DNA of 45,850 nt, from IMG/VR virus record IMGVR_UViG_3300046542_000330, positions 1-45,850 of that record, one strand, 5' to 3'. Source of the stretch: a virus. The translations under genes and the position numbers were made by a program. How positions within the stretch are numbered: position 1 is the stretch's first letter; each line of letters opens with the position of its first letter. Positions 2,873 through 42,183 of the stretch are shown here, one piece after another. The notes below the pieces were generated by a model, which saw only the letters and a program-made list of their open reading frames with translations, was not told the origin of the DNA and did not search any database.

Positions 2873-3026
2873 TGCTGCCTCCTGCGGTCGGGGCTTCAAC
2901 TGCCAGCTGGTCTATGCGCGCCAGCAACGCACTGCGGTATTGGCCCAGCGTCTGGAACGCGGCCGCGTGGCCGTCGTCGGCCACCAGGAGGCGCACCGAC
3001 GCCAGGGCTTGCTGCCGGTCGGCCAT
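2715..3026 (-). CDS. hypothetical early protein, overlapping frame
   Basis: ATG 3026 overlaps the stop of the helicase-like gene as TGATG. The first 45 residues (MADRQQALASVRLLVADDGH, then FQTLGQYRSALLARIDQL) look like a genuine helical protein. The last 50 residues are Gly/Ala/Pro-rich and overlap the well-supported 55-aa gene in another frame, so the natural C-terminus may have been lost through a shift near 2880. Confidence 0.5.
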   Translation of the reverse strand: MADRQQALASVRLLVADDGHAAAFQTLGQYRSALLARIDQLAVEAPTAGGSNDAGDPPDPAAGARVPGQATPGTHAATGAGGDPAPAGVGADRGGARERAAGN

Positions 3027-5545: not shown

Positions 5546-6738
5546 GCGGGCTTCCGGTGGGTTTTGGTAAACGACCGATTCACGGCATGGCCGCGCCTCA
5601 GGACCGCGCGCGCGACTTGGGCGCGGTCAGCATGGCTGCTGTCCGACTGGCGCAGCAGGCCGAGATAGCTGTTTGCCGCGGCGTACACCATGCTGTCGTC
5701 CATGGTGCGCAGGCGCTCGACGGCCTGCCCGACAGTGCGCCGGCGGGTGCGCGTGTGCCAGGGCTTGATCACATGGCCGACGAAGTCGACGCCGCGCGCC
5801 ACCGGCTGCAGGATCGTCTTGCTCGGGTTCAGCCTGGCGCCCAGCGTCGTGGGCAGGAACGCCTCAATGCTGGCCAGGGCCGCGTTCAGCCACTGCGGCG
5901 ACTCGTGCAGCAGAACGAAGTCGTCGACGTAGCGCACGTAATGGCGGGCGCGCACCTGGTGCTTCGCGTACTGGTCGAGCGCGTCGAGGTAGATGTTGGC
6001 GAAGAACTGCGACGACAGGTTTCCGATCGGCAGGCCGAGGTGGCCGGGCTGGCTGGCCAGGCGCTTGTGCGGCGGCACCAGTTCGACCAGCCGGCGTTCG
6101 CCGCGCAGCTCGTAGTCCGCGCGCGGGTCGTGGAACAGGATCACGCCGGCCAGCCACAGCCACCAAGGCTCCGTTACGCGGGCGGCGATCTGGCGCCACA
6201 GCACGCGCTTGTCGATCGAGACGAAGAAGTTGGCCAGGTCGCACTTCAGGTACCACAGCGGCCGGCTCCAGTTCTGGGAGGCGGTGCGGATCTTGCCTTC
6301 CAGGCGACGGGCCGCGTACAGCGTGCCGCGGCCCGGGATGCAGGCGCAGGTGTCGCTGATGAACGAGGCGTAGAAGCGCGGCGCGATGCGGTTGTACAGC
6401 AGGTGGTGCACGATCCGGTCGCGGAAGTCGGCCGCCCATACCTCGCGCGGCCTGGGGCGCGTGATGATGAAGCAGATCGAGCGGCCGGGCCAGTAGCTGC
6501 CGTCGGCCAGTTCGTCGCGCAGGCGCGCCAGGTTGCGCTCCTGGTCCTGCTCGAAGGCGGCGGCGCTGGCCGAGTTGCGTTTGGTCTTGCGGCAGTCGAG
6601 GTAGGCCTGCACCAGCTCCTCGAAAGAAAAATCAGCATGGGGGCTGCCGGGATAATCTGCGGACCGCGCGAGCGCGGAGGCTGGCCGACTTGTTGTTGTT
6701 GTTCTGGTTGCCGTTGTTGAAGTTCTGATTCCAGGCAT
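5542..6738 (-). CDS. DGR reverse transcriptase
   Basis: RVT_1 polymerase. Using the ATG at 6738 the catalytic Asp is 167 (YLKCDLANFFVSID), the motif IGNLSSQ (238-244) replaces the usual QGxxxSP and is diagnostic of DGR enzymes, and YVDD is at 270-273. It copies the template RNA with errors at adenines. The start is uncertain: the frame is open to 6975, the ATG at 6738 lies inside the template repeat, and the conserved part begins only at about SFEELVQAYLDC (near 6630). A GTG at 6612 behind GAGGAG is another option, though it would trim conserved residues. The end overlaps the methyltransferase start. Confidence 0.9.
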   Translation of the reverse strand: MPGIRTSTTATRTTTTSRPASALARSADYPGSPHADFSFEELVQAYLDCRKTKRNSASAAAFEQDQERNLARLRDELADGSYWPGRSICFIITRPRPREVWAADFRDRIVHHLLYNRIAPRFYASFISDTCACIPGRGTLYAARRLEGKIRTASQNWSRPLWYLKCDLANFFVSIDKRVLWRQIAARVTEPWWLWLAGVILFHDPRADYELRGERRLVELVPPHKRLASQPGHLGLPIGNLSSQFFANIYLDALDQYAKHQVRARHYVRYVDDFVLLHESPQWLNAALASIEAFLPTTLGARLNPSKTILQPVARGVDFVGHVIKPWHTRTRRRTVGQAVERLRTMDDSMVYAAANSYLGLLRQSDSSHADRAQVARAVLRRGHAVNRSFTKTHRKPA

Positions 6739-18312: not shown

Positions 18313-19101
18313 ATGAACGACCAAGCCATCCTCGAAAGAGTTGCCCAGAACCCGAAATGCCGCGCCGTCCAGCTGGCCGACTGGCTCGACGTCGACCTGG
18401 TGGACGTGCAGGCCTCGCTGGCCGGCATGATCGCTGTCGGCGACGTGGTCGCCGAACCCGGCACCTCGCCGGCCGGCAACGCCTGCCAGCTCTACAGCCT
18501 GTCGGCCAGGTTCATGGCGTCCGACGCCTACAAGCCGATCGCCGTCAAGGCCGCTGCTGCCCAGTTCGCCGCAGCCCACGCGGACCTGAACAAGACCGAC
18601 CGCGCGATCGCCTTCGTCCGCGAGCGTGGTACCGCATCGTCCTACGAGCTGCACGTGGTCATGGGCCTGAAGCCGAACGAGAACGCGTCGACCTCTCTGC
18701 GCGTGGCGCTGTCCGATGGCCGCCTGGTCAGGGACGGCAGGGACTGGAAGCTGGGCGCGAAGGCTGCCGCCGGCGGGCCTCCGGCGCCTGCTGCTGCTCC
18801 CCAGCCGCAGCCTGCTGTAGACCAGCCGGCACAACCCCATCTCCAGGTGCCGGTATTCGCTGACGCCAACGAGCCATCGGAACCGGTGCCGACGCCACCT
18901 GCCATGCCCGAGCAGCGGCCCGTCGAGATCGTTCCCGTTCAAGCGGGAGCGGTGCGGCCCGTCTACCGCTGCGCCCTGTGGTCCGACGGCATCCTCGAGG
19001 TGCGCAGGGACGGACAGACCGTGGCCGAGATGGAGCAGGGCGCCGGCGAGTCGCTGGCCGCCTTCCTCTGCCGCCTGGCGGCAGAGCGGGCCCCGGCCTG
19101 A
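18313..19101 (+). CDS. winged-helix phage protein (262 aa)
   Basis: Two HTH-like stretches can be seen: residues 1-60 (ILERVAQNPKCRAVQLADWL) and 95-150 (RAIAFVRERGTASSYELHVV, LRVALSDGRLVRDGRDWKLG). A Pro/Ala/Gln linker follows (150-205), then a small C-terminal domain (CALWSDGILEVRRDGQTVAE). It could bind DNA near the packaging region. No precise family named. Confidence 0.65.
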   Translation: MNDQAILERVAQNPKCRAVQLADWLDVDLVDVQASLAGMIAVGDVVAEPGTSPAGNACQLYSLSARFMASDAYKPIAVKAAAAQFAAAHADLNKTDRAIAFVRERGTASSYELHVVMGLKPNENASTSLRVALSDGRLVRDGRDWKLGAKAAAGGPPAPAAAPQPQPAVDQPAQPHLQVPVFADANEPSEPVPTPPAMPEQRPVEIVPVQAGAVRPVYRCALWSDGILEVRRDGQTVAEMEQGAGESLAAFLCRLAAERAPA

Positions 19102-19118
19102 CCCGGGGTGGGTAGCCG

Positions 19119-19136
19119 CCCGGCCGGTCGGCCGGG
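19119..19136. other. perfect GC hairpin upstream of terminase
   Basis: CCCGGCCG-GT-CGGCCGGG, an 8-bp perfect stem. No T-run follows, so it is not a classic terminator. It may end transcription of the preceding gene in a factor-dependent way or be part of the packaging site. Confidence 0.45.
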
Positions 19137-19224
19137 AGCCCCCCGGGGTTAGGTTCTTCCCAGCCCCTGCCCAGCAAGGGTAATTCAGGCCCCGGAAAAA
19201 CACTAGCCGGTGCCCAAAACATTT

Positions 19225-19275
19225 CCTGACAAATAACCTGACAAGTACCAAAACGGATGCCAAACCTGACAAGTA
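19225..19275 (+). repeat. CCTGACAAGTA repeats, candidate terminase-binding (cos/pac) site
   Basis: CCTGACAAATA at 19225-19235, CCTGACAAGTA at 19237-19247 and again at 19265-19275, the third inside the first codons of the small terminase gene. Lambda-type phages carry small-terminase binding repeats directly upstream of that gene. Inferred from place and repetition. Confidence 0.5.
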
Positions 19276-19817
19276 TCGCTGAGTGGGCCAAGCTGGTGGG
19301 TATCTCGCGCCAGTCCGCGTACGACGCGATCGAGCGTTGCGGAATTCCGGTGACGGATAAGAAGGTCGACCCGGACTACGCGACGCACCTGTACGAGAAA
19401 AACACCAGGAAGCGCACTAAGGGGGAGGGCACCGCCCCCTTGGCTGAATCTGCGGTTCCCGCTGCCGCGGCGGGTGCGGGAGGTGCGGAGGTGAAAGCGA
19501 AGGTACCAGGGTACGAAACCAGCCGCGCGCGTCGGGAGGCGGCGGAGGCAGCGAAGGCGGAGATGCAGCTGGCCGAGATGGCGGGGAAGTTCCTGGTCAA
19601 GAGTGATGTCGAGGGCTCGGTGTTCGAGATCGCGCGCGGGCTTCGGGACGGTCTGATCAACTGCTCGCGGCGCATTGCTGCCGAGGTCGCAGCGTGCACG
19701 ACCACCGAGGCCTGCGAGGCTGTCATCGACCGCGAGCACATCGCGTTGCTCGAAAGCATGGCGCAGTTGTTCGAGGCGCAGTTGGGCCTGTCGGTAGAGG
19801 GAGCGATCGAGGGATGA
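19257..19817 (+). CDS. terminase small subunit (Nu1-like)
   Basis: 186 residues. An N-terminal HTH (SIAEWAKLVGISRQSAYDAI), a disordered Ala/Gly linker (60-85) and a helical C-terminal part (ARREAAEAAKAEMQLAEMAG, IARGLRDGLINCSRRIAAEV) give the Nu1 architecture. It should recognise the packaging site and recruit the large subunit. The stop overlaps the terL start. Confidence 0.8.
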   Translation: MPNLTSIAEWAKLVGISRQSAYDAIERCGIPVTDKKVDPDYATHLYEKNTRKRTKGEGTAPLAESAVPAAAAGAGGAEVKAKVPGYETSRARREAAEAAKAEMQLAEMAGKFLVKSDVEGSVFEIARGLRDGLINCSRRIAAEVAACTTTEACEAVIDREHIALLESMAQLFEAQLGLSVEGAIEG

Positions 19818-21787
19818 TGATTGCCCCCGCCATCGGTACCGTCCGCTCCGCCTTCGGGCGCGGGCTGCGTCCTGATCCAAACCTGCCGGTCGACGAGTGG
19901 GCCGACAAGTACATGATCATCCCAAAGACCGCCGGCGCCAGCGAGTACGGCAAGTACCGCTCGAGCCGCACGCCGCACGCGAGGGAGGTGATGCGCGCGT
20001 TGTCGGGCATCCATCCCTGCAAGCGGGTCGTGGTGATGGGCGCGTCGCAGATGCTCAAGACCCAAGTGGGCCTGAACTGGTTCGGCTCGACCGTGCACCA
20101 AGCGCCGTCGAATTTCCTGTGGATCCTGCCGACCGGCAAGCTGGCCAAGCGCGCCAGCAAGCGCATCGACAAGACCATCGCCGCGGTGCCCCAGCTGCGC
20201 GAGCGGGTCGCGGTGCCGCGGGCGCGCGACGCGGTCAACACGATGGATACCAAGGAGTACGAGGGCGGGGCGCTAACCATCGTGACCTCGGGCGCGGCCG
20301 CCAACCTGTCGGAGCTGTCCTGCCGCTACGTGCTGTACGACGAGATCGACCGCGCCGACTCGAACGTCGACGGCGAGGGTGACACCGCCGCGCTGGCCGA
20401 GGCGCGCCAGACCTCGTTCGAGCGCAACAAGAAGACCTACTACCCCAGCTCGCCGACGACCAAGGATGCATCCGCGGTCGAGACCCTGTTCCTCAAGGGC
20501 ACCCAGCGCGAGGCGCTGGCCGACTGCGTGCACTGCGGCCACCCGCAAACCCTGGTGTTCGAACGCCTCGAGAAGGGCGAGGACGGGCGCGCGAGGTACC
20601 CGTGCATCGACTGCGGCGTGTTCATGTACGAGACCGACAAGACCAGGATGTTCGAGCGCGGCGCCTGGACCGAAGGCGTGGCGGGCGACGGCGAGACCGA
20701 GAGCTTCACCATCAACGCCCTGTTCCTGCCGTACGGTTGGTTCCCCTGGCTGGGCCTGCTCAAGGAATACCGGGCCGCTGCGAAGAAGCTGGAGGAGGGC
20801 AGCGACGAGCTGATGATCACGTTCTACAACACGCGCCTGGCGCGCAGCTGGGAGCGCAAGAAGGAACAGACCAAGGCCAAGGAACTGCAGGACCGCGCCG
20901 AGCCCTACAAGCTGGGCACGGTGCCGAAGGGTGGCCTGATCCTGACCGCGGCGGTCGACACCCAGCCGGACCGCTTCGAGATGAAGGTGGTGGCGTGGGG
21001 CGAGGGCATGGAAGGATGGATCGTCGACTACCAGATCGTGCAGGGCTCGCCATCGGACCAGTCCACCCAGGACAAGCTCGACGCGCTGCTGCTGGGCCGG
21101 TACAAGCACGCCGGCGGCCGCACGCTGCCGATTTCGGCGGCTTTCATCGACTCGGGCGGCGCCAACACCCACGACGTCTACAATTTCTGCCGCACTCGCC
21201 AGCACCGGCACATCTTCGCGATCAAGGGCGAGTCGCGCTACAACAAGCCGATCATCGGCAGCAAGCCCTCGATGATGGACGTGAACTGGATGGGCCAGAC
21301 CATTCCTGCGGGCGTCAAGCTGTGGTGGATCGGTACCGACACCGCCAAGGACTATCTGGCGACCCGCTACAAGCTGGCCAGCGGGCCCGGCGCGATCCAC
21401 TTCTCGTCCGATCTGCCGAAAGAGTACTACGAGCAGCTGACCGCCGAATACAGCGTCGCCGTGTTCAAGCGCGGTCGCAAGATCCATATCTGGGACAAGA
21501 AAAAAAGTGATCGCAACGAGGCCGGCGACGTGATGGTGTATTCGGTCGCCTGCGCCTACTACCTCGGCCTGCACAAGAAGACCGCGCACCAGTGGCAGCA
21601 GCTGCGCGAATTCATCGACCCGGATACGCCCGACCTGTTCCAGCAACCGCAGCCCGCCGTGCAGGCCGAGGCCGCCCAGAGCGCCGTCGAGGCGCCCACC
21701 CCAGCCCAACCATCCACACCATGGCAGACACCGAACCAGCCGCAGTCGACCCCCGCACCACGCCGCCGCGCCGGGAGGGAATGGTGA
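19814..21787 (+). CDS. terminase large subunit (lambda GpA family)
   Basis: 657 residues. GpA-type ATPase with a deviant Walker A (VMGASQMLKT, about 75-83), a Walker B-like YVLYDEIDRAD near 175, zinc-like Cys pairs (CVHCGH and CIDCG), and the nuclease AAVDTQPDRFEMKVVAWG near 380 plus AFIDSGGANTHDV. It cuts and translocates phage DNA into the prohead. The C-terminus is Pro/Gln-rich. ATG 19814 or 19817 both follow GAGGG. Confidence 0.93.
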   Translation: MMIAPAIGTVRSAFGRGLRPDPNLPVDEWADKYMIIPKTAGASEYGKYRSSRTPHAREVMRALSGIHPCKRVVVMGASQMLKTQVGLNWFGSTVHQAPSNFLWILPTGKLAKRASKRIDKTIAAVPQLRERVAVPRARDAVNTMDTKEYEGGALTIVTSGAAANLSELSCRYVLYDEIDRADSNVDGEGDTAALAEARQTSFERNKKTYYPSSPTTKDASAVETLFLKGTQREALADCVHCGHPQTLVFERLEKGEDGRARYPCIDCGVFMYETDKTRMFERGAWTEGVAGDGETESFTINALFLPYGWFPWLGLLKEYRAAAKKLEEGSDELMITFYNTRLARSWERKKEQTKAKELQDRAEPYKLGTVPKGGLILTAAVDTQPDRFEMKVVAWGEGMEGWIVDYQIVQGSPSDQSTQDKLDALLLGRYKHAGGRTLPISAAFIDSGGANTHDVYNFCRTRQHRHIFAIKGESRYNKPIIGSKPSMMDVNWMGQTIPAGVKLWWIGTDTAKDYLATRYKLASGPGAIHFSSDLPKEYYEQLTAEYSVAVFKRGRKIHIWDKKKSDRNEAGDVMVYSVACAYYLGLHKKTAHQWQQLREFIDPDTPDLFQQPQPAVQAEAAQSAVEAPTPAQPSTPWQTPNQPQSTPAPRRRAGREW

Positions 21788-22080
21788 TCGGTCAGGAGAT
21801 CGTCGAGAACGAGGATTTGTTCGACGCCATCTTCGACTACCTGGTGACCGAGTTCCCCGAGTTCGCCCCGCGCGCGGCCAAGGTCAAGGACGAGCTGCGG
21901 CGCGAGTTCAGCGGCAACCAGGTGTACATCTCGCGGCGCTCGGAGGCCGACCGGCAGCGCCTGGTCCGCGAGGTGCTCAAGCTGTTCGACGGGCGCAACG
22001 CCACCGAGATCGCGCGGCGCCTGAACATCGGCCGCGCCACCGTCTACCGCATCCTCAAGCAGGCCGGCGCCGCCAAATAA
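21781..22080 (+). CDS. Mor-like transcription regulator
   Basis: 99 residues. The C-terminal HTH (LVREVLKLFDGRNATEIARR then LNIGRATVYRILKQAG) with the preceding helical part (DLFDAIFDYLVTEFPEFAPR) resembles Mor/C late activators of Mu-like phages. It lies between terL and gpW and overlaps the terL stop. A GGGAGGG box is close to the ATG. In this position it may tune late transcription; see the dyad directly after it. Confidence 0.7.
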   Translation: MVIGQEIVENEDLFDAIFDYLVTEFPEFAPRAAKVKDELRREFSGNQVYISRRSEADRQRLVREVLKLFDGRNATEIARRLNIGRATVYRILKQAGAAK

Positions 22081-22107
22081 CGTCTCAGTTTTCTTGGAAT
22101 TGAGACA
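22081..22107. promoter_or_regulatory. dyad element copy 1 (GTCTCA-N13-TGAGAC)
   Basis: Starts at the first base after the Mor-like gene stop. 27 bases that recur with a single change at 26946-26972, both loop and arms. Arms GTCTCA/TGAGAC are perfect complements. It may be an operator for the neighbouring Mor-like protein, an RNA processing hairpin, or a recombination scar. Confidence 0.6.
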
Positions 22108-22130
22108 GCCGCCCCGGTACCCTCGGCGGC

Positions 22131-22346
22131 ATGGCCCTCACCCAAGCAGACCTTGACACCCTCGACAAAGCGATCGCCTCCGGCACCCTGGAGGTCGAGT
22201 TCGACGGCCGCCGCCAGCGCTTCCAGACCACCGACGCCCTGATCCGCGCGCGCGACCACGTCGCCCGCGTCGTCAACCAGGGCGCGTCCCTGAACCGCGG
22301 CCCGCGCGTGTTCGGCTTCCGCTTCACCACCACGAGGGGTGACTGA
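22131..22346 (+). CDS. gpW-like head-tail joining protein
   Basis: 71 residues with the short alpha-beta gpW pattern: LTQADLDTLDKAIASGTLEV, then FDGRRQRFQTTDALIRARDH. gpW closes the filled head and provides the tail attachment point. Its stop overlaps the portal start (TGATG). Confidence 0.85.
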   Translation: MALTQADLDTLDKAIASGTLEVEFDGRRQRFQTTDALIRARDHVARVVNQGASLNRGPRVFGFRFTTTRGD

Positions 22347-23818
22347 TGGCGAACGTGCTGGACCGCCTGGTCGGCTGGATCAACCCCCACGCCGGCCTGG
22401 CGCGCCACTTCGCGCGGCGCCGCCTCGAGCGCGCCTACGAGGCCGCCAGCCCGCGCGACCCGTGGCGCCCGCGCCGCGCCGGCGCCAGCGCCAACGCCGA
22501 CCACCAGGCCGACGCCAGGATCCTGCGCACCAAGGCGCGCGCCCTGGTGCAAAACGTGCCCTACATCTGGGCCGGCATGGACGGCCTGGCCACCGCCACC
22601 GTGGGCACCGGGATCATCCCGCGCGCCGACGGCCGTGACAAGGACACGATCAACAAGCTGTTCGCCGACTGGGCCAAGGTGTGCGATTCCGACGGCCGCT
22701 TCGACTACTACGGCCTGCAGCGCGCCGCCTACTTCGCCATGGAGCAGGACGGCGAGGTGCTGGTGCGGCTGCGCTGGCGCCGTCCGTCCGACGGGCTGCC
22801 GGTGCCACTACAGCTCCAGCTGCTCGAGATCGACTGGCTCGACAGCTCCCGCACCGACACGAGCAACGGCAACCGCATCGTCAACGGCATCGAGTACGAT
22901 GCGCTCGGCGCGGTCGCCGCCTACTACCTGTGGGACGAGCACCCCGGCGACGTGGCGGTCGCGCGCGGGCGCTCGCAAAGCCAGCGCGTGCCGGCCAAGA
23001 ATATCATCCACCTGTTCAACCCCGAGCGCCCGGGCCAGGGTCGCGGATTCACGCGCCTATCCCGCGTGATCGCCAAGACCCGCGACCTGTCGCTGTACGA
23101 GGACGCCGAACTGGCGCGCAAGAACCAGGAGGCTCGCCTGTCCGTGCTGGCCAGCGGCGACGCGAGCGGCCTGGACAACCCGGCCTCGTTCGGCGAGGGC
23201 GCGGCCAGCCGTGGTCCGACCGACTTGGGCGAACTGGGCGGCGGCAACATCGTCCACCTGCCGGCCGGGCTGAACATGACCGTGGTCGAGCCGAAGGCGG
23301 CGCCCGGCTACGTCGACTACGTCAAGCTCAACCTGCACATCATCGCGGCCGGCATGGGCGTGCCGTACGAGATGCTGCTCGGCGACATGAAGGACGTGAA
23401 CTTCAGCAGCGCGCGCGTGCGCCTGCTCGACTTCCGCCGCACGGTCACGGCGACGCAGTGGCTGGTGCTGATCCCCAAGCTGCTCGAGCCGATCCACCTG
23501 GCCTTCGTCGAGGCCGCATTCCTCGCCGGCAAGATCAAGAGCCGCGACGCCACGGTCAAGTTCAGCACGCCAAAATTTGACTATATCAACCCCCAGCAGG
23601 ACATCGCGGCCGACCGGGACGAGATTGGCGCCGGCCTGGCCAGCCCCAGCGAGAAGCTGCGCCAGCGCGGCTACGAGCCGGAGGAGGTGTACGCCGAGAT
23701 CGCCGCCGACATCAAGAAGTGGCGCGAGCTGGGCATCCTCGATGTGCTGCTGTTCATGCAGCGCGGGAACATGCCGACGCCGCCCGCCGCCGACTCCGCA
23801 GCGCCCGCCACTTCCTAA
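22346..23818 (+). CDS. portal protein (lambda GpB family)
   Basis: 490 residues typical of lambda-type portals: VQNVPYIWAGMDGLATATVG near 70, YFAMEQDGEVLVRLRW near 128, NIIHLFNPERPGQGRGFTRL near 217, and GMGVPYEMLLGDMKDVNFSS near 340. Forms the dodecameric ring for DNA entry and exit. Confidence 0.93.
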   Translation: MANVLDRLVGWINPHAGLARHFARRRLERAYEAASPRDPWRPRRAGASANADHQADARILRTKARALVQNVPYIWAGMDGLATATVGTGIIPRADGRDKDTINKLFADWAKVCDSDGRFDYYGLQRAAYFAMEQDGEVLVRLRWRRPSDGLPVPLQLQLLEIDWLDSSRTDTSNGNRIVNGIEYDALGAVAAYYLWDEHPGDVAVARGRSQSQRVPAKNIIHLFNPERPGQGRGFTRLSRVIAKTRDLSLYEDAELARKNQEARLSVLASGDASGLDNPASFGEGAASRGPTDLGELGGGNIVHLPAGLNMTVVEPKAAPGYVDYVKLNLHIIAAGMGVPYEMLLGDMKDVNFSSARVRLLDFRRTVTATQWLVLIPKLLEPIHLAFVEAAFLAGKIKSRDATVKFSTPKFDYINPQQDIAADRDEIGAGLASPSEKLRQRGYEPEEVYAEIAADIKKWRELGILDVLLFMQRGNMPTPPAADSAAPATS

Positions 23819-23862
23819 CCAACCACCGGCGTGCGCCCGCACGCCCCAACCACGAGGTCACC

Positions 23863-24501
23863 ATGTCCGGACTCACCGACTACGCACAAAACAAGGTCAA
23901 GGACGCGCTGTGGCGCGGCCAGGCGCTGGGCGCTCCGTCCACCGCCTACTTCGCGCTGTTCACCTGCAGCCGCGGCGAGCGCGCCAATTCCACCACCTAC
24001 GCGCTCAACGACACGGCCGTCGTCAAGATCGGCGCCGCCTATTCCTTCTACAAGTGCACCACGGCCGGCAACACCGCCGCCGCGCTGCCGGGCTACACCG
24101 GCGCCCGCGGCGAGGCCATCACCGACGGCACCGCCGTGTTCACCGAGCAGAGCGCCACGCTCGACGCCGGCACGTTCACGGAAGTGACCGGCGGCGCCTA
24201 CGCCCGGGTGGGCGTGGCCGCATCGCTGGCCAACTTCTCCGGCACCCAGGGCGCCGGCACCACCGCCGCCTCGAACGGCACCACCGGCACGACCTCGAAC
24301 AACGGCGCGATCGCGTTCCCGGCGCCGACCGCCCAGTGGCACCCGGCCGGCGGCGCGGTGGTCGGCGTCGCCGTGTTCGATGCGGCCACCGGCGGCAACC
24401 CGTGGCACTGGTCGATCATGAGCGCCCCGAAGAACATCAACAACGGCGACGCCGCTCCGACCATCGCCGCCAACACGTGGTCCGACACCGTGGGCGCGTA
24501 A
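23863..24501 (+). CDS. tail-fibre/Gp80-like beta protein
   Basis: 212 residues beginning SGLTDYAQNKVKDALWRGQA, with STAYFALFTCSRG, a central TGGAYARVGVAASLANFSGT and a C-terminal NNGAIAFPAPTA and GNPWHWSIMSAPKNINNGDA. This family is common in phage structural regions and is often called tail fibre protein. Here it sits between portal and protease, so a head or neck decoration is possible. Confidence 0.75.
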   Translation: MSGLTDYAQNKVKDALWRGQALGAPSTAYFALFTCSRGERANSTTYALNDTAVVKIGAAYSFYKCTTAGNTAAALPGYTGARGEAITDGTAVFTEQSATLDAGTFTEVTGGAYARVGVAASLANFSGTQGAGTTAASNGTTGTTSNNGAIAFPAPTAQWHPAGGAVVGVAVFDAATGGNPWHWSIMSAPKNINNGDAAPTIAANTWSDTVGA

Positions 24502-24505
24502 TCGC

Positions 24506-25453
24506 ATGAGCTTGACCCACGCCTTCGTCTCACCTGCGTCGTCCAGCAGCGACCCCAATGTGGTCGATGGCCCGAAGTGGAATGGCGATCACCTGATCGA
24601 CGGCAACGGCGCCAACATGGTGTTGTCGTCGGCCTTGCCGGCTACTCCCGCCGCCGGCAAGGGCGCGCTGCTGGGGCGCGACGTGGCCGGCGGCGCGCTG
24701 CCGGGATTCATTGGGCCCGATGGCCGCGCCTTCGCGCTGCAGCCGTTTCTCGGCCAGCGGCGCACGCTGTGGTGGCAGCCGATCCCCTCGGTCGCCAGCG
24801 CCTCGCTGTCGCTGATGGGCGGCGCGCTGTCCACCGTCGGCACGTTCAATGCCCGCACCAGCAACGCCTCGAACATGTTCACGCTGGCGGCGCGTTACGG
24901 CCTGACCACCAACGCCACCCCGAATCTGCGCGCCGCCGCCTACTTCAACCAGAATTTGTACGTGCGCGGCAACGCGGCCAACTTCGGCGGCTTCCGCGCG
25001 GTCTTCCGGTTCGGCATCAGTGACCCGGCAGTCGTGGCAACAGCCAACATGTTCGTCGGCATGGTGGCGGCATCGTCGATGCTGAACACGGCCGAGCCAT
25101 CGGCGGCGGTGAACATGATCGGGATCGGCCACGACAGTACCGATACCGTGATGCAGCTCATCACCAACGACGGCACCGGCATCGCGACCAAGGTCCCCCT
25201 CGGGGCGGGCTTCCCGATCAACACCCAGGGTACCGACGTGTACGAACTGGCACTGTACTGCGCTCCCAACAGCGGCAGCATCGGGGTGCAGGTCACGCGC
25301 CTGAACACAGGCGACGTGTTTCGCGCGAGCGTGATTAGCGACCTGCCGGTGGCGACGCAAGCCATCTACCCCGGATTCTTCCGTGGGAACATGAGCACCG
25401 CGCTGGGCGTGGGCATTGATGTCTTCGGCCTGTACGTGGAAACGGAGGTTTGA
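24506..25453 (+). CDS. putative receptor-binding / fibre head protein
   Basis: 315 residues. An N-terminal attachment-like piece (to about 95) is followed by a beta-sandwich resembling phage fibre heads: TLWWQPIPSVASASLSLMGG, ARYGLTTNATPNLRAAAYFN, DSTDTVMQLITNDGTGIATK and a C-terminal GIDVFGLYVETEV. Likely displayed on the virion. It is in an unusual place for a receptor-binding gene. Confidence 0.65.
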   Translation: MSLTHAFVSPASSSSDPNVVDGPKWNGDHLIDGNGANMVLSSALPATPAAGKGALLGRDVAGGALPGFIGPDGRAFALQPFLGQRRTLWWQPIPSVASASLSLMGGALSTVGTFNARTSNASNMFTLAARYGLTTNATPNLRAAAYFNQNLYVRGNAANFGGFRAVFRFGISDPAVVATANMFVGMVAASSMLNTAEPSAAVNMIGIGHDSTDTVMQLITNDGTGIATKVPLGAGFPINTQGTDVYELALYCAPNSGSIGVQVTRLNTGDVFRASVISDLPVATQAIYPGFFRGNMSTALGVGIDVFGLYVETEV

Positions 25454-25455
25454 CG

Positions 25456-25821
25456 ATGACGCAATGGTCGATCTCCTACCCGAGCGGCACGATTTATAAG
25501 GATGGAGTCGTGCAAGCCGATCTGTCCGAGTATGTGCAATTCCTGCAGGGCGGCGGCACGCCCGCGCCATTGCAGGATGCGCCGCCGCGCCGTCGCATCG
25601 TCGTCACCGCATGGCAGCTGGTGCAGGAACTGATTGCCCAGGACTTGTACGACCGGGTCGATATGGCGGTCGCGGCCAGCGGGAACAAGACGGTTCAGGC
25701 CGGCTGGTCGCGCGCACCGTTCTTCTTTTCGGATGAAGCGATGACGCTGCAGATCGGCGCCACGCTGGGCAAGACCGAGGATCAGATGTACGCCCTGTTT
25801 GAATCTGCGGAACGTCGGTAG
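25456..25821 (+). CDS. hypothetical structural-region protein (121 aa)
   Basis: ATG 25456 lies seven bases after GGAGG. Sequence starts TQWSISYPSGTIYKDGVVQA, with a Pro-rich loop and a helical end (SDEAMTLQIGATLGKTEDQM). No family recognised. It ends directly before the Ala-rich repeat gene and may be its chaperone or partner. Confidence 0.65.
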   Translation: MTQWSISYPSGTIYKDGVVQADLSEYVQFLQGGGTPAPLQDAPPRRRIVVTAWQLVQELIAQDLYDRVDMAVAASGNKTVQAGWSRAPFFFSDEAMTLQIGATLGKTEDQMYALFESAERR

Positions 25822-26604
25822 ATGCCGGCGTTTGACAGCAGCTCGTTCGATAGCGCCGCATTCGACTGTGCAGCAGCGGCGGCAGGGGCGGCGCTCGGGG
25901 CTTCCGGCGCCACAAGCGCCACCGGCTCGGTGTCGCTCGCGACGAGCATCGGTCTGGCTGCTACGGCAGCCTCGCCCGTGACGGCAGCGGTTGCGTTGGC
26001 CGCCGTCATCGCCATCACCGCATCCGCCACGACAGCCTCATCGGGATCTGCCGCCCTGGCAACATCCCCCGCCCTGGCATGCTCGGCAAGCACCCCGACG
26101 GCTGCGTCGGCCACCGTGGCCACCGGCGTCAACCTGGCCGCCACGGCTACCACCCGCAGCAGCGCCAGCGCCGCCCTCGATGTCAGCGGCGGCGGCGCGT
26201 TCGGCGCCGTGGCCACCACCAGCTGCGGCGCGTCCGCATCGCTCGCCACCGGCGTCGACCTGGCCGCCGCCGCGGCAACCAGGCTTACCGCCTCCGTCGA
26301 CCTGGTTGCCGGCGCCGCACTGGCCGCCAGCGCCGCCGCCAGCTGGCGTGCCGAGTGCGCCCTGGACACCGGCGTCGCGCTGGCCTGCGCGACCCAAACC
26401 GGCGCGCAGGCGGCCGTCTCGGTCGCGACCGGCATCACGCTGGCCGCCGCCGGCTACACCACGACGACGGCGCGCGCCGCGCTGCTGGTGCTCCGTCCCG
26501 GCGACACCAGCACCGTGTCCGCCCCCATCGCCTTCGACGCGCCGGCCGAAGACCGGATCCACCTCGAGCACGCCGAAGAGCGTATCTACCTCGCGCCAGC
26601 CTAG
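25822..26604 (+). CDS. Ala-rich repeat protein of the head block
   Basis: 260 residues with an FDSSSFDSAAFD start known from phage structural proteins, then degenerate tandem units of about 20-45 residues with the core ATGVxLAAxA (TSIGLAATA, TGVNLAATA, TGVDLAAAA, TGVALACAT, TGITLAAAG). The last 30 residues are acidic. Could be a fibrous or solenoid decoration. Repeats make copy-number change likely. Confidence 0.65.
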   Translation: MPAFDSSSFDSAAFDCAAAAAGAALGASGATSATGSVSLATSIGLAATAASPVTAAVALAAVIAITASATTASSGSAALATSPALACSASTPTAASATVATGVNLAATATTRSSASAALDVSGGGAFGAVATTSCGASASLATGVDLAAAAATRLTASVDLVAGAALAASAAASWRAECALDTGVALACATQTGAQAAVSVATGITLAAAGYTTTTARAALLVLRPGDTSTVSAPIAFDAPAEDRIHLEHAEERIYLAPA

Positions 26605-26615
26605 AAGGAACCCAC

Positions 26616-26930
26616 ATGCGCACCGAAACCTACTTCGTCACCAGCGGCCGCCTCAGCATCTACAAGACGCCGTCCGCCGAGCTCTACTACGGCATCAACC
26701 TCAAGAACTGGCTGGCCAAGGCCGGGACCTCGCTCGCGAGCGTGACCGCGACCGTCGCCGGCGTCACGCTCGCCGAGGACGCCGCCGTCGACGGCACCAT
26801 CGTCAAGGCGCTGGTGGCCGGCCTCGACGAAGCCGACGGCGCCGAGAACTGGATCCGCTTCGACTTCACCTGCACCGACGACAAGAGCCGCGATTCGCGC
26901 ACGATCCACTTCCTCAAACGGCCCGCCTGA
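26616..26930 (+). CDS. small beta-rich structural-region protein (104 aa)
   Basis: ATG 26616 is five bases after AAGGAA. Residues 20-60 (ELYYGINLKNWLAKAGTSLA, VTATVAGVTLAED) and the C-terminal TDDKSRDSRTIHFLKR resemble the small Ig-like decoration proteins in phages that carry a linear plus W-motif plus resolved beta pattern. Exact role unknown. Confidence 0.65.
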   Translation: MRTETYFVTSGRLSIYKTPSAELYYGINLKNWLAKAGTSLASVTATVAGVTLAEDAAVDGTIVKALVAGLDEADGAENWIRFDFTCTDDKSRDSRTIHFLKRPA

Positions 26931-26945
26931 AGGCGCCCTGCAAAT

Positions 26946-26972
26946 CGTCTCACTTTTCTTGGAATTGAGACA
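26946..26972. promoter_or_regulatory. dyad element copy 2 (GTCTCA-N13-TGAGAC)
   Basis: Identical to 22081-22107 apart from one base (C for G after the first arm). It lies between the decoration gene and the protease-capsid gene. The two copies bracket gpW, portal and the five-gene insert. Confidence 0.6.
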
Positions 26973-26994
26973 AAGCAATCCGCAGAATGCCTGC

Positions 26995-29076
26995 ATGCCT
27001 ACACCGACCGCCGCGCCAGCCGCCACCCGCCACGACACCGATCCGCGCAACATGCCGACGCTGAACCGTGCGGCGGCGCTGGAGCCGGCTACCTTCAACG
27101 AAGCCGACAACACCGTCGAGCTGGTCTGGACCACCACCGGCGCCCTGGTGCGCCGCTACGACTGGTACCGCGACACCTATTACGACGAAGAGCTGGTCGT
27201 GACGCCCGAAGCGGTCGACATGGCGCGTTTCGAAGCCGGCGTCGTGCAGGTCATCGATTGCCACCGTACTTGGGGCGGCGTCGCCGCGATCATCGGCATC
27301 GCCACCCGCGGTTCGATCGCCGAAGGCGAGGGGCGGGCCACCATCCGCCTGTCTGTCCGGCCGGAGATGGCTGGCATCGTGGCTGACATTAGGGCCGGCA
27401 TCATCCGCTCGGTCAGCTTCGGCTACAACATCACCAAAGTCGAGATCACCCGCGCCATCGATCGCACCGACGGCGTCAACGACGTGCCGCTGTACCGCGC
27501 CATCGAATGGGAGCCATACGAAATCAGTTTCGTCACCGTCAACGCCGACATGAATGCGAGCACGCGCGAGCAGCCGGCCAACGGTCACCCATGCCAGTTT
27601 TTCACCCGGGCGCCCGCCCTTTCAACAACCCAAGAGGACCCATCCATGCCGACTCCAGGTACCCCGCCGGGCGCACCGAATCCCGCGCTTGCCGACCCGA
27701 CCCGTTCCGCCGCCCCGACTCCGGCCCCCGCAGCACCGCCCGCACCGGCAGCCCCGGCCCCGGCCGCCGACGACGCCAACGTGCGCGCCGCCCAGCAGGA
27801 AGCGGCCACCCGCGCCGCCGACATCACCGAGCTGTGCCAGCGCCACGGCGTCAGCCAGCTGGCCGCCGGCTTGATCCGCTCGGGCAACTCGCTCGAGCAG
27901 GCCCGCGCCGCCGTCCTGGACGAACTGTCGCGCAACGACGGCTCCGGCCGCCACAACGTGCGCGTGCAGATCGTCACCGACGAACACGAAGTGCGCATGG
28001 CCGGCATCGAAGAGGCGATGACGCACCGGATCGTCGCCGGCACCAAGCTGACCGACAACGGCCGCCAGTACCGAGGCATGAGCCTGCTCGAGATCGGCCG
28101 CGACTTCCTCGAAGCGTGCAATGTCAACACGCGCGGGATGGACAAGCTGCGCCTGGCCACCGAGATCCTGCAGTATCGCTCGGGCATGCACAGCACCTCC
28201 GACTTCGCGGCCATCTTTTCCAACGTCGCCAACAAGCGCATGCGCGGCGCCTACGAGGAAAACGCCGGCAGCTACACCCGCTGGGCGCGGCGCGCGCCGA
28301 ACGCGCCGGACTTCAAGTCGATCAACATCGTGCAGCTGTCGGGCGCGCCCGACCTGCTGCAGACCAACGAGCATGGCGAGTTCAAGTACGGCTCGTTCAA
28401 GGACGCCGGCATCAGCTACAACCTGATCACCTACGGCCGCATCGTCTCGCTGACCCGCCAGGCCATCATCAACGACGACCTGCGCGCCTTCGAGCGCCTG
28501 GTCACCATGTTCGGCTCCAGCTCCAGCCGCCTGGAGAACCGCCTGGTCTACAGCCAGCTGACCGCCAACCCGGCCATGGGCGACGGCGACGCGCTGTTCC
28601 ACGCCAACCACGGCAACCTGGCCACCGGCGCCGGCTCCGTCCTGGCGCTGACCGCGCTCAAGGCCGGCCGCACCGCGATGCGCAAACAGAAGGGCCTGGC
28701 GAACGAAGAGCTGAACCTGACGCCGACCTACCTGCTCGTGCCGACCGATCTCGAGCAGGATTCCTACCAGCTGACCAGCGCGAACTACGTGCCGGCCAAG
28801 CAGGCCGACGTCAACGAATTCCGCGCCGGCGGCCGCACCGCGGTCGAGCCGATCGTCGAGCCGGTCCTGGACGCCAACAGCACCACTGCCTGGTACCTGG
28901 CCAGCAACAACAGCCAGGTCGACACCGTCGAGTACTGCTACCTCGACGGCGCCGAGGGCCCGGTCATCGAGCAGGAAGTCGGCTTCGACGTGGACGGCGT
29001 CAGCCTGAAGTGCCGCCTCGACTTCGCCGCCAAGGTGGTCGATCACCGCGGCCTGTACAAGGGGGCGGGCGCGTAA
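26995..29076 (+). CDS. prohead protease - major capsid protein fusion
   Basis: 693 residues from ATG 26995. Residues 1-200 are an HK97/S78-type prohead protease (His90 in IDCHR, Ser141 in SVSFGY). After an Ala/Pro-rich linker (220-265) comes a helical scaffold-like part and, from about 330, the capsid fold (TDNGRQYRGMSLLEIGRDFL, KRMRGAYEENAGSYTRWARR, FGSSSSRLENRLVYSQL). An in-frame ATG at 27646 has AGAGGA seven bases before it and could yield the 476-residue scaffold-capsid part alone. TTG frames upstream exist, but ATG is preferred. Confidence 0.88.
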   Translation: MPTPTAAPAATRHDTDPRNMPTLNRAAALEPATFNEADNTVELVWTTTGALVRRYDWYRDTYYDEELVVTPEAVDMARFEAGVVQVIDCHRTWGGVAAIIGIATRGSIAEGEGRATIRLSVRPEMAGIVADIRAGIIRSVSFGYNITKVEITRAIDRTDGVNDVPLYRAIEWEPYEISFVTVNADMNASTREQPANGHPCQFFTRAPALSTTQEDPSMPTPGTPPGAPNPALADPTRSAAPTPAPAAPPAPAAPAPAADDANVRAAQQEAATRAADITELCQRHGVSQLAAGLIRSGNSLEQARAAVLDELSRNDGSGRHNVRVQIVTDEHEVRMAGIEEAMTHRIVAGTKLTDNGRQYRGMSLLEIGRDFLEACNVNTRGMDKLRLATEILQYRSGMHSTSDFAAIFSNVANKRMRGAYEENAGSYTRWARRAPNAPDFKSINIVQLSGAPDLLQTNEHGEFKYGSFKDAGISYNLITYGRIVSLTRQAIINDDLRAFERLVTMFGSSSSRLENRLVYSQLTANPAMGDGDALFHANHGNLATGAGSVLALTALKAGRTAMRKQKGLANEELNLTPTYLLVPTDLEQDSYQLTSANYVPAKQADVNEFRAGGRTAVEPIVEPVLDANSTTAWYLASNNSQVDTVEYCYLDGAEGPVIEQEVGFDVDGVSLKCRLDFAAKVVDHRGLYKGAGA

Positions 29077-29121
29077 GCGCGACCCCTGCCAGCCAGCTCA
29101 ACGAACCGATAGGAAACCAAC

Positions 29122-29454
29122 ATGAAGAATTTCATCCAGAACGGCGACGTGGTCACCGTCCCCGCGCCGTACGCCGTCACCAGCGGGCAGGGCGTGCTGG
29201 TGGGCGCGCTGTTCGGCGTTGCCGCCTTCACGGCAGCCCAGGGCGCCCCGGTCGAGATCAAGCGCGAAGGCGTGTTCGAGATCACCGCCGTCACCGCCGA
29301 CACCGGCACCGCCGGCGCCAAGATCTACTGGGACAACACCGCGCGCAAGCTGACCACCACCGCCACCAACAACACCCTGGTCGGTGCGCTGGCGGCGGAC
29401 AAGGCCGGCACCGCCACCACCGCCACCGTCCTGCTCGACGGCGTCATCCGCTAA
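29122..29454 (+). CDS. DUF2190 capsid decoration protein
   Basis: 110 residues: NFIQNGDVVTVPAPYAVTSG, GVLVGALFGVAAFTAAQGAP and KIYWDNTARKLTTTATNNTL are the hallmark strands of DUF2190, small trimeric capsid cement proteins. Directly downstream of the capsid gene. Confidence 0.88.
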   Translation: MKNFIQNGDVVTVPAPYAVTSGQGVLVGALFGVAAFTAAQGAPVEIKREGVFEITAVTADTGTAGAKIYWDNTARKLTTTATNNTLVGALAADKAGTATTATVLLDGVIR

Positions 29455-29466
29455 GGCCCGCCGCGC

Positions 29467-29766
29467 ATGTCGTCCTTCGCCGCCCTTGAAGCCCTCGCCA
29501 ACGCCAGCGTGCTCACGCATCTGGCCAACGCCAGCGTGTTGATCGGCGGCGTCACCGTGCCCGGCATCTTCCGCAACCCGGCCAGCGTCGCCAGCCTCGG
29601 CAACGGCGCGGCCGACACCAGCCCCACCGTCGCCGTCGCCTCCAGCGCCGTGCCCGACAACGCCGTCGACCAGCTCATCGAGATCAACGGCGTGCCGTTC
29701 GCGATCGTCAACCCGGCGCCGGACGGCACCGGCATGACGGTGCTCACCGTGGAGTGCGTCCAGTGA
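29467..29766 (+). CDS. head-tail connector (gpFII-like)
   Basis: 99 residues: a helical start (LEALANASVLTHLANASVLI) then beta strands ending IEINGVPFAIVNPAPDGTG and TVLTVECVQ. Place between the decoration protein and tail genes and length fit gpFII-type head-tail joining proteins. Stop overlaps the next GTG start. Confidence 0.65.
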   Translation: MSSFAALEALANASVLTHLANASVLIGGVTVPGIFRNPASVASLGNGAADTSPTVAVASSAVPDNAVDQLIEINGVPFAIVNPAPDGTGMTVLTVECVQ

Positions 29767-30218
29767 GCACCGCGTTCTCCCAGATCGTCGGCACCGCGTT
29801 CTCAAAGATCATCAGCGCGGTGCTGGCCGCACTCGAAGCGGAGCCGCCGGTGTGCGAGACGTTCTACCGCGCGCGCCCGAATATCGTGCCGGAGCAGTTC
29901 GAGCGGGCCGTCAACGTCCAGTGGGACCAGGCGCTGGCCAGCCCGGGCACGATCTTCGGCGCGCCGATCGACTGGAAAACCAGGGTCACCGTCGAATGCT
30001 ACGCACGCGCCCTGCGCGACAGCGGCGACTTGGCGGTCGACCCGCTGCTCGAAGCGGTCTACGCGCGCCTGGCGCAGGATCCCACCCTCGGCGGCCTGGT
30101 GCGCGACCTGAACATCGTGGGCATCGAGGCTGAGAACACGGCCGAGGGCAAAAAGACCGGCTGGGTCCGCCTCACCTACGTCGCAGAACACACAACCAGC
30201 AACGACACCCTGGAGTAA
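29763..30218 (+). CDS. tail terminator/completion protein (gpU-like)
   Basis: 151 residues from a GTG overlapping the previous stop (GTGA). NVQWDQALASPGTIFGAPID, TRVTVECYARALRDSGDLAV and a C-terminal GIEAENTAEGKKTGWVRLTY fit minor tail proteins that cap the tail tube. Confidence 0.7.
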   Translation: MSTAFSQIVGTAFSKIISAVLAALEAEPPVCETFYRARPNIVPEQFERAVNVQWDQALASPGTIFGAPIDWKTRVTVECYARALRDSGDLAVDPLLEAVYARLAQDPTLGGLVRDLNIVGIEAENTAEGKKTGWVRLTYVAEHTTSNDTLE

Positions 30219-30221
30219 CGC

Positions 30222-30416
30222 ATGAACCAAGCAAGCACCGCGGCCGCGCCGCAACGCGAGATCCCGCCGCTGCCCGGCGGCGGCTCGTACACCTTCGATG
30301 AAACGAGCTGGGCATGGGTCTCGAACGATCCGGCCCCGGCCGAGCAGCCCGCAGCCGCAGAACCTGCCGCCGCGCCGATCGCCGCACCGGCCGACCAGCC
30401 GACCAGCCAGGAGTAA
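30222..30416 (+). CDS. small acidic Ala/Pro-rich protein (64 aa)
   Basis: GGGSYTFDETSWAWVSNDPA then an Ala/Pro/Glu tail. A short ordered motif followed by a disordered end is common for small genes before the tail-tube gene in phages. Function unknown. Confidence 0.65.
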   Translation: MNQASTAAAPQREIPPLPGGGSYTFDETSWAWVSNDPAPAEQPAAAEPAAAPIAAPADQPTSQE

Positions 30417-30419
30417 CCC

Positions 30420-31379
30420 ATGTCCCGCTATCTCAAAAACACCCTGCTCGTCTCCGCCCTGCAAAGCGCAATCGGTACGCCCGCCACGCCAGTCGGCGCC
30501 ACCGACGCGGTGCTGACCACCGACGTCAGCATCACCCCGCTCGACGCCCAGAACATCGACCGCAACCTGATGCGCGGCTTCTTCGGCGGCAGCGAGCAGC
30601 TGGTCGGGCCGGGTTCGGTCAAGGTCAGCAACTCGGTCGAGTTGGCCGGCGCCGGCACCGCCGGCACCGCGCCGCCCTGGGGCAAGCACCTGCAGGCCTG
30701 CGCCGTGGGCGAGGGCATCCTCGCCACGCCGGCGCGGGTCGAGTACACGCCGGTCTCGACCGGCCTCAAGGCCATGAGCCATTCCTACTACGACGACGGC
30801 GTGCTGCATAAGCTGGTCGACGCGATGGGCGACTTCACGCTGTCGGCCAAGGTCGGCGAGCGGCCGCTGCTCAAGTTCGACTGGGTGGGCCTGGACGGCG
30901 GCGTGTCCGCTGCCAGCGACACCGGCACCTTCACCTCCTGGAAGAAGCCGGTGGCGATGACCAAGGCCAACGTGGTCGACATCACGCTCGGCGCCAGCTA
31001 CGCGGCCGGCGCGCTCACCGGCGGCACGGCCTACTCGAGTACCGGCCTGGAGATGAAGGCCGGCAACCAGGTCAACTTCACCGCGCTGCTCAGCAGCGAG
31101 ACGGTCGACATCACCGACCGTGAATCGACCGGCTCGGTCGAACTCGACCTGACGGCGGCCCAGGAAGTCGCGCTGATGGCCGTCGTCAAGGCCAACACGA
31201 CGCAGAGCCTGGCGATGACGATTGGCACCACCGCCGGCAACAAGATCATCTTCTTCGCGCCCGCCGTGCAGCTGATCAACCCGAAAAAGGTCGAGAAGAA
31301 CGGCAAGCGCCTGATCGGCTTCGACCTGCGCTTCGTGCCCGTCAACGGCAATGACGAATGGCGGATCGTCGTCCTGTAA
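30420..31379 (+). CDS. major tail tube protein (gpV-like)
   Basis: 319 residues. Starts SRYLKNTLLVSALQSAIGTP, contains RGFFGGSEQLVGPGSVKVSN, ARVEYTPVSTGLKAMSHSYY and ends GFDLRFVPVNGNDEWRIVVL, the usual pattern of long-tailed-phage tube proteins. Confidence 0.85.
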   Translation: MSRYLKNTLLVSALQSAIGTPATPVGATDAVLTTDVSITPLDAQNIDRNLMRGFFGGSEQLVGPGSVKVSNSVELAGAGTAGTAPPWGKHLQACAVGEGILATPARVEYTPVSTGLKAMSHSYYDDGVLHKLVDAMGDFTLSAKVGERPLLKFDWVGLDGGVSAASDTGTFTSWKKPVAMTKANVVDITLGASYAAGALTGGTAYSSTGLEMKAGNQVNFTALLSSETVDITDRESTGSVELDLTAAQEVALMAVVKANTTQSLAMTIGTTAGNKIIFFAPAVQLINPKKVEKNGKRLIGFDLRFVPVNGNDEWRIVVL

Positions 31380-41095: not shown

Positions 41096-41536
41096 ATGAA
41101 AGACAACATGAGCCTCGAGACCACAGCAGCTGGCGGTGCCCTGATCAAAATCTTCGGCGTGCCGGTGCTGGCCGGCGCCGCCGCCACCGCGCTGGCGTTC
41201 CTGTTCATGTGGCCGCGCACCCTCAAGGAAGCCTTCGTGCGCCTGGCCGCCACTATCCTCGCGTCGGCCATCGCCGGCCCGCTCCTGGTGATCGCGGTGC
41301 ACTCCTGGTGGCCCACCCTGTTCCAGTCGGCCGGCCAAGTGGCCGTCCTGTACGGCAGCAGCGCCGAACTGGGTTTCCTGTTCATCGCCGCGCCCTTCAT
41401 GGTGATGGCCGGCCTGCCGGCCTGGTGGCTGATGGGCGCGGTCGTCCTCTGGCTCGACAAGCGCCGCGGCAAGGACATCGGCGAGATCGCGCGTGAGGCG
41501 GCCGAGGTGGTGCACGACGTGCGGGGTGCGCTGTGA
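41096..41536 (+). CDS. holin-like membrane protein
   Basis: 146 residues with three probable transmembrane segments (PVLAGAAATALAFLFMWP; AATILASAIAGPLLVIAV; LGFLFIAAPFMVMAGLPAWW) and a charged end (LDKRRGKDIGEIAREAAEVV). Upstream of the endolysin, which is the usual holin position. Starts at 41054 or 41108 are also possible. Confidence 0.65.
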   Translation: MKDNMSLETTAAGGALIKIFGVPVLAGAAATALAFLFMWPRTLKEAFVRLAATILASAIAGPLLVIAVHSWWPTLFQSAGQVAVLYGSSAELGFLFIAAPFMVMAGLPAWWLMGAVVLWLDKRRGKDIGEIAREAAEVVHDVRGAL

Positions 41537-42183
41537 ACCGCGCCCAGTTGCTCGCGATCGCGCCGGCGGCCGCGCGCCAGGCCGACCAGTTCCTCGCGCC
41601 GCTGAACGCGGCGATGGCACGCTTCGGCATCGACAGCCCGGCGCGCCAGGCGGCGTTCATCGCCCAACTGCTGCACGAGTCGCGCAACCTGACGGCGATG
41701 AGCGAGAGCTTTAACTACAGCCCGGCCAACCTGATGGCGACCTTCAACACGGCGAAGGTGCAGCGCTTCACGCCGGAGATGGCCGCGCTGTACGGCCGCA
41801 CCGCGACCCACGCCGCGAACGAACAGATGATCGCGAACACCGCCTACGCCAACCGGATGGGCAACGGCGCGATCGAGTCGGGCGACGGCTGGCGGTACCG
41901 CGGGCGCGGCCCGGGCCAGCTGACCGGCAAGGACAACTATGCCAGGTGCGGCGCCGCGCTCGGGCTCGACCTGGTGCGCTATCCGGACCTGGTCGCGCAG
42001 CCGGAAGCCGGCTGCCTCGCGTTCGCCTGGTTCTGGGCCAAGGGGAATCCGACCGGGCGCGACCTCAACCTGCTGGCCGACGCCGGCAAGATCGAGGGCG
42101 TCAGCCGGGCTGTCAACGGCGGCACCAATGGCCTGCAGGAACGGTTGGCGCTCACCGAACGCGCGCTCGAGGTGCTGGCATGA
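41533..42183 (+). CDS. GH19 endolysin
   Basis: 216 residues. Glycoside hydrolase 19 features: QAAFIAQLLHESRNLTAMSE with catalytic Glu49, WRYRGRGPGQLTGKDNYARC, and a C-terminal VSRAVNGGTNGLQERLALTE. Cleaves the glycan backbone of the host wall. No signal peptide, so it needs a holin. GTG start overlaps the previous stop. Confidence 0.9.
   Translation: MNRAQLLAIAPAAARQADQFLAPLNAAMARFGIDSPARQAAFIAQLLHESRNLTAMSESFNYSPANLMATFNTAKVQRFTPEMAALYGRTATHAANEQMIANTAYANRMGNGAIESGDGWRYRGRGPGQLTGKDNYARCGAALGLDLVRYPDLVAQPEAGCLAFAWFWAKGNPTGRDLNLLADAGKIEGVSRAVNGGTNGLQERLALTERALEVLA

Follow-up and report, generated by a model that had tools for sequence, protein, structure and literature searches.

The viral record IMGVR_UViG_3300046542_000330 of IMG/VR (positions 1 to 45,850, one strand of 45,850 nucleotides, hereafter the window) carries a head module in which the genes and elements follow the order terminase large subunit, Mor-like protein, first dyad, gpW-like protein, portal, cargo, second dyad and protease-capsid fusion (Table 1). 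Both dyads are 25 bp long and match the form GTCTCA-N13-TGAGAC with zero mismatches, at a spacing of 4,865 bp. They can be extended to 27-base versions (22081-22107 and 26946-26972) that have one G/C difference between the copies, and since the outer flanking bases of these versions, C and A, are not complementary, the dyad itself measures 25 bp. The first 27-mer begins at the base directly after the Mor-like open reading frame (ORF), which ends at 22080, and the distance from dyad to downstream ATG is 24 nt for the gpW-like gene (22131) and 23 nt for the protease-capsid gene (26995). The original prediction of two 27-base copies, differing at one base, about 4.87 kb apart and with the first starting right after the Mor-like gene, was thus borne out, whilst its description of the pair as bracketing the portal block holds for the second copy, which stands before the protease-capsid gene, and needs amending for the first, which starts the gpW-like gene preceding the portal.

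With up to 3 mismatches allowed, the full-length pattern including its middle, GTCTCANTTTTCTTGGAATTGAGAC, gave 2 matches in the window versus 0 in 100 shuffles. The arms by themselves, when 2 mismatches are tolerated, are expected 1.25 times by chance and are unremarkable, so the significance of the pair rests on its identical middle. A pattern search found no third copy of GTCTCA-N13-TGAGAC elsewhere in the window. Likewise, a profile trained on the sites of other phages, with the window excluded, scored the two copies at 56 and 54 bits and the best non-overlapping position at -14.6, with no third site in the window.

Table 1. Features of the window that bear on the two dyads.
Feature	Position	Strand	Evidence	Prediction or remark
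Terminase large subunit	19694-21787		profile/PHROG match	
Mor/C-like activator gene, 99 aa	21781..22080	+	ORF; PF08765, phrog_532	residues 84 and 86 covary with dyad arms
Activator dyad 1	22082..22106	+	pattern and profile	predicted ~ -48 to -24 of gpW-portal late promoter
-10-like hexamer TACCCT	22118..22123	+		11 bp past dyad 1
gpW-like head-tail adaptor gene	22131..22346	+	phrog_2545 head-tail adaptor Ad1, 2.5e-14	no Shine-Dalgarno; predicted leaderless start, late transcript 1
Portal gene	22346..23818	+	PF05136, 4e-91	second gene of predicted late transcript 1
Activator dyad 2	26947..26971	+	pattern and profile	predicted ~ -48 to -24 of capsid late promoter
-10-like hexamer CAGAAT	26983..26988	+		11 bp past dyad 2
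Protease-major capsid fusion gene	26995..29076	+	phrog_4523, 7e-226	no Shine-Dalgarno; predicted leaderless start, late transcript 2
GH19 endolysin	41533-42183			no third dyad in the window (profile scan)

Relatives were collected by searches with the Mor-like protein and its own relatives, and removal of near-duplicate loci sharing 120-base probes reduced 241 loci to 143 non-redundant ones. Before counting we dropped L002-L004, the weak loci L058-L060 and L001, which is the same contig as L096. One of the dropped loci, L004, had been found with a shorter 18-mer and was a chance match; the exact 25-mer occurred in only one relative among viral contigs, L001. Of 140 loci that could be tested for a dyad before the gpW-like gene, 139 had one (137 by script threshold, 2 by eye), and all 99 tested for a dyad before the protease-capsid gene had it there (96 by script threshold, 3 by eye). 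L031, L032 and L191 were scored by eye, as the automatic finder missed the site in L032 and took a spurious one in L031, with the real site visible in both, and L191 was re-registered by hand to a loop of 16; L223, counted as loop 14, probably has loop 16 as well. Among loci selected instead by their capsid gene (44 found, 5 left out because the match lacked a gene start or lay at a contig end), 36 of 39 had the site, and the three without it encoded capsids 26-31% identical with no Mor-like match. Of 18 genome-contig loci, the 15 strong ones (L043-L057) carried Burkholderiales names (Massilia, Rhodoferax, Undibacterium, Rubrivivax, Acidovorax, Curvibacter, Variovorax and one 'Burkholderiales bacterium'), the other three being weak and dropped. 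Among cultured phages, neither a megablast of 12.4 kb nor tblastn with the Mor-like protein found a match, and these phages were therefore used as controls only. Three of them, PBb001, LPPA33 and RcMeacham, possess the capsid module but lack both the site and any annotated gene between terminase and the gpW-like gene.

The position of the site follows the downstream gene. The Mor-like ORF overlaps the site in 54 of the 139 loci, and in another 16 the Mor-like stop codon lies 287-2,199 bp from a site that still stands before the gpW-like gene, so the site is not a mere tag of the Mor gene end. Similarly, the portal gene is separated from the second site by at least 150 bp in 50 of 97 loci and the site remains before its downstream gene, whilst in L001 only the portal and gpW-like genes lie between the sites, yet both dyads are present. 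Further copies exist in some phages: a third dyad was found in 11 of 48 whole records scanned (the GTCTCA pattern missed the first copy in three of these, G003, G004 and G008, where it starts with ATCTCA). It lay upstream of holin or endolysin genes in all three records whose downstream genes were checked: L248 has a 3TM holin at this place, L251 a LydA-type holin together with a GH19 endolysin and L249, as judged by eye, a membrane protein with an endolysin-like ORF behind it. In L248-L251, records related to Massilia phages, the third copy again has a -10 at 11 bp.

Across the relatives, the sites have the geometry expected of promoters that lack a -35 element. The A and T of a -10-like hexamer, xAnnnT, lay 11 bp past the right arm in 234 of 238 sites, compared with no more than 9 of the 238 at each of the remaining offsets between 6 and 17, figures that carry a mild bias because the finder slightly favoured A/T at offset 11 in its scoring. 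These are the two -10 bases most needed by sigma-70. The first hexamer base was T in 129 of 139 sites before the gpW-like gene (mostly TAnnnT) and C in 72 of 99 before the capsid gene (mostly CAnnnT). No recognisable -35 element was present at the sites, and a scan of the + strand of the window from 19000 to 30500 for sigma-70 consensus promoters gave no match. With the hexamer at -12 to -7, the 25-bp dyad would span -48 to -24. The spacing between half-sites ranged from 13 to 16 bp with one fixed value per phage, and in loops of 14-16 the right arm stayed 11 bp from the -10 whilst the left arm shifted outward; this would fit a bound dimer whose downstream subunit is the one held by RNA polymerase, and half-site spacing looks to have been retuned per lineage. 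Loops of 15 or 16 bases, equal in both copies of a phage, were seen in L026, L036, L191, L225 and L231. We also observed that the dyad middle (22088-22100 and 26953-26965 in the window) tends in relatives towards an inner repeat, TTTCCnGGAAA, whose centre is one base off that of the outer arms.

The same geometry places the predicted transcription starts at or next to the start codons. Most genes start close behind the dyad, at 23-27 nt for 99 of the 139 gpW-like genes and at 23-26 nt for 98 of the 99 capsid genes, and by usual -10 spacing transcripts would begin at the ATG or within about 1-3 nt of it, making the gpW-like and capsid messages leaderless. By that rule, the leaders in the window would measure 0 or 1 nt. 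A Shine-Dalgarno (SD) duplex of -4.5 or better was found at only 5% of these gpW-like starts and 7% of the capsid starts, versus 95% of 84 portal starts from the same phages.

Site and protein change together. Among the 97 genomes that carry both sites, the two copies agreed in loop length in all 97 and in arm base 3 in 96, and loop identity was 0.887 within genomes versus 0.737 between them, a value reached in 0 of 2000 permutations. Unusual variants were repeated within their phage, as with GTCCCA..TGGGAC twice in L029, a loop of 16 twice in L191 and an AT-rich loop twice in L021, a concordance from which one protein would be expected to read both copies. In a comparison of 139 activator-site pairs, T86 accompanied TGG(N)AC-type arms (10/10), R86 TGGCAC or TGTCAC (5/5), H84 TGCGAC (6/6) and V86 TGAAAC (1 case), whilst A86 went with TGAGAC in nearly all remaining cases and none of the TGAGAC genomes had T86, R86 or H84. 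Residues 84 and 86 lie at the start of the predicted recognition helix. On a portal-protein tree of 134 rows, 10 independent pairs comprised 8 changing in the same way, 0 in the opposite way and 2 with no difference (sign test p 0.0078, for a residue set picked after the residue-arm table had been seen). A tree-corrected scan applying one rule to every column, restricted to columns of the Mor-like protein, placed 86 first and 84 second. Loop length was also associated with residues 46-54, an association that was not tree-corrected and is not relied on here.

By sequence, the Mor-like protein belongs to the Mor/C family: residues 32-95 of its 99 match Pfam Mor (PF08765) at 32.7 bits (cut-off 24.9), it matches phrog_532 'late transcriptional activator' at 7e-10 and also phrog_836, again a late transcriptional activator, and its family profile aligns to Mu C over positions 7-90 and, through F-GRN and VYI motifs, to Mor. 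The fold evidence is weak. An AlphaFold model (predicted local distance difference test 78.9, predicted template-modelling score 0.47) places the recognition helix at residues 85-97; the lack of a full-length structural match covering the N-terminal domain was not taken as evidence. The ATG of the Mor-like gene overlaps the final 7 bases of the terminase large-subunit gene (21781-21787), an overlap through which the two may be translationally coupled.

We therefore consider, at a probability of roughly 0.9, that the dyads are Mor/C-type late-activator sites centred at about -36 in two, and in some phages three, predicted late promoters. In the proposed mechanism, the Mor-like gene, whose start overlaps the large terminase gene, would presumably be expressed earlier and its product would then switch on the head genes, binding both dyads as a dimer. 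The dyads would act as operator or -35-replacement elements, with the dimer at about -48 to -24 taking the place of the -35 contact and recruiting or activating host sigma-70 RNA polymerase. Promoter 1 would start the gpW-like and portal genes with any cargo behind them, promoter 2 the protease-capsid gene and, in some relatives, the third copy would serve the lysis genes. The original prediction had offered, as one possibility, that the Mor-like protein binds the dyads and thereby controls two points of entry into late transcription, and this gains support from conservation at gene starts, the 11-bp spacing to the -10, concordance within genomes and covariation of the arms with residues 84 and 86. 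Conservation in relatives, the absence of which it had named as refuting, was found at 139 of 140 gpW-like and 99 of 99 capsid starts. A fuller proposal, which we judge reasonably likely, is that a clade of Burkholderiales phages runs its head genes through leaderless messages, with a short Mor/C activator over the -35 region, starts at the gpW-like and capsid ATGs, specificity recoded several times by single changes at 84 or 86 with all copies in step, and half-site spacing retuned within 13-16 bp per phage.

Several observations weigh against this interpretation. Foldseek ranked the Mor structure 1rr7 first at an E value of only 0.09, a second structural comparison covered just the helix-turn-helix (HTH) part (residues 52-99), where TrpR, DeoR and resolvase domains tied with Mor, and in a sequence profile comparison a Tn3 resolvase domain outscored Mor (6e-5 versus 6e-4). 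The site exceeds that of Mu Mor in size (25-28 versus 16 bp) and lies closer to the -10, spanning roughly -48 to -24 around a centre near -36. The finder bonus at offset 11 belongs here too, as does the single locus without a recognisable dyad before its gpW-like gene (L238, around 2780-3100), whose Mor-like protein is a distant relative with 38% identity to the L030 query. Two of the 10 independent arm changes came without a change to T86, R86, V86 or H84 (the table rows fitting them are L029, with S86 and TGGGAC, and L040, with A84 and TGCAAC), and S86 was also paired with TGAGAC in 4 loci. Finally, the 40 gpW-like genes that start farther from the dyad have a good SD in just 28% of cases, so that weak SD pairing is not limited to the class predicted to be leaderless.

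Among other explanations, late-promoter operators bound by a different protein, whether of the host or a further regulator of the phage, or sites with a repressive role, fare best and are still improbable. Binding over -48 to -24 could obstruct RNA polymerase, but promoters without a -35 element or a consensus sigma-70 match would have little basal activity to repress, and the PHROG name of the family is that of an activator. Another binding protein would likewise sit poorly with column 86 of the Mor-like protein being the best of all its columns after tree correction, and with specificity changes that recur in separate lineages. That the dyads act as RNA hairpins, as terminators, attenuators or processing signals at transcription-unit ends, seems very unlikely: they are 6-bp inverted repeats with compensating arm changes and the first copy comes after a stop codon, but neither site has a T-run or a terminator-like match on the + strand, and the first pair is A/C, and hence unpaired in sense RNA, in 21 of 238 sites. 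Nor would a hairpin call for a conserved loop shared between the copies of one phage, for a fixed distance upstream of the -10 and, mostly, of the gene start, or for covariation with a recognition helix. Least credible is the suggestion, also raised in the original prediction, of scars or recombination points of inserted modules (Mor-gpW or portal-capsid cargo), which could draw on the variable-size cargo upstream of both sites in many phages but is strongly disfavoured by the two copies of the cargo-free L001, by sites that stay near the downstream gene start in the loci examined, and by the 11 bp held to the -10 in 234 of 238 sites and the tracking of protein residues, neither of which scars would produce.

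As Mor/C-type activator sites, the dyads can be compared with known phage systems. The Ogr/Delta proteins of P2-type phages are phage-encoded late activators with a dyad upstream of several late promoters, as proposed here; unlike the present HTH protein, they are zinc-finger proteins bound near -55 and unrelated to this family. Mu Mor controls the operon of another regulator, whereas head genes would be under control here, and the present protein has 99 residues versus 129 in the Mor PDB chain. Mor is described as a dimeric activator whose dyad replaces the -35 of the middle promoter Pm (PMC4390567), the dyad being given as 16 bp at -51 to -36 with its centre at -43.5 (PMC4287176; PMC4390567); the Pfam Mor match and the predicted -35-replacing dyad are the points of likeness. 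Mu C is presented as a small phage-encoded HTH activator (PMC4461284) on a dyad (PMC4287176), acting at four late promoters, Plys, PI, PP and Pmom, with weak -10 and -35 elements (PMC4461284). The resemblance here lies in one phage activator gene with several promoter-like sites, including a lysis promoter in some relatives. Unlike the situation in Mu C, the gene of the regulator is placed between those for terminase and gpW in a head module of the lambda-portal type, the dyad measures 25-28 bp and leaves 11 bp between its right arm and the -10, the messages are predicted to be leaderless, and there are usually two sites only. The system would work like Mu Mor/C, from which it differs in the size and position of the site, its genetic placement and the predicted leaderless starts.

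To our knowledge, the choice of DNA by Mor/C-family activators has been studied mainly in one phage, Mu, and we found no description of the present system in the literature searched, a search that lay outside subscription papers and preprints. The roughly 140 natural activator-promoter pairs, with repeated specificity switches at two amino acids, make the recognition code directly testable. The capsid gene is normally among the most highly expressed genes of a phage, and if it is indeed translated here without a ribosome-binding site, these phages would offer a natural system for the study of leaderless translation. In addition, the motif of dyad, 11 bp, xAnnnT and ATG allows late promoters to be found by sequence in this phage group.

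A possible cousin system occurs in Stenotrophomonas phage S1 (NC_011589, L252), whose portal is 54% identical to that of the window. Its gp5 (5357-5712), an HTH gene between the terminase and gpW-like genes, is annotated as a putative peptidase and weakly matches the late-activator family phrog_836 (1.3e-4). Between it and the gpW-like gene stands a perfect dyad of 12 bp, looped by 8 nt, that is single in the 13.4 kb searched. S1 has no GTCTCA/TGAGAC site before its gpW-like or capsid gene, and tblastn with the Mor-like protein gave no hit there; gp5 with its own dyad is perhaps a cousin of the arrangement described here.

The cargo between portal and capsid in the window (23577-26930) includes two genes matching the gp80 and gp77 fibre proteins of podophage GP4. 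In 50 of 97 relatives the corresponding slot contains between 150 bp and 4.8 kb, and the contents of the slot would be transcribed from the first promoter.

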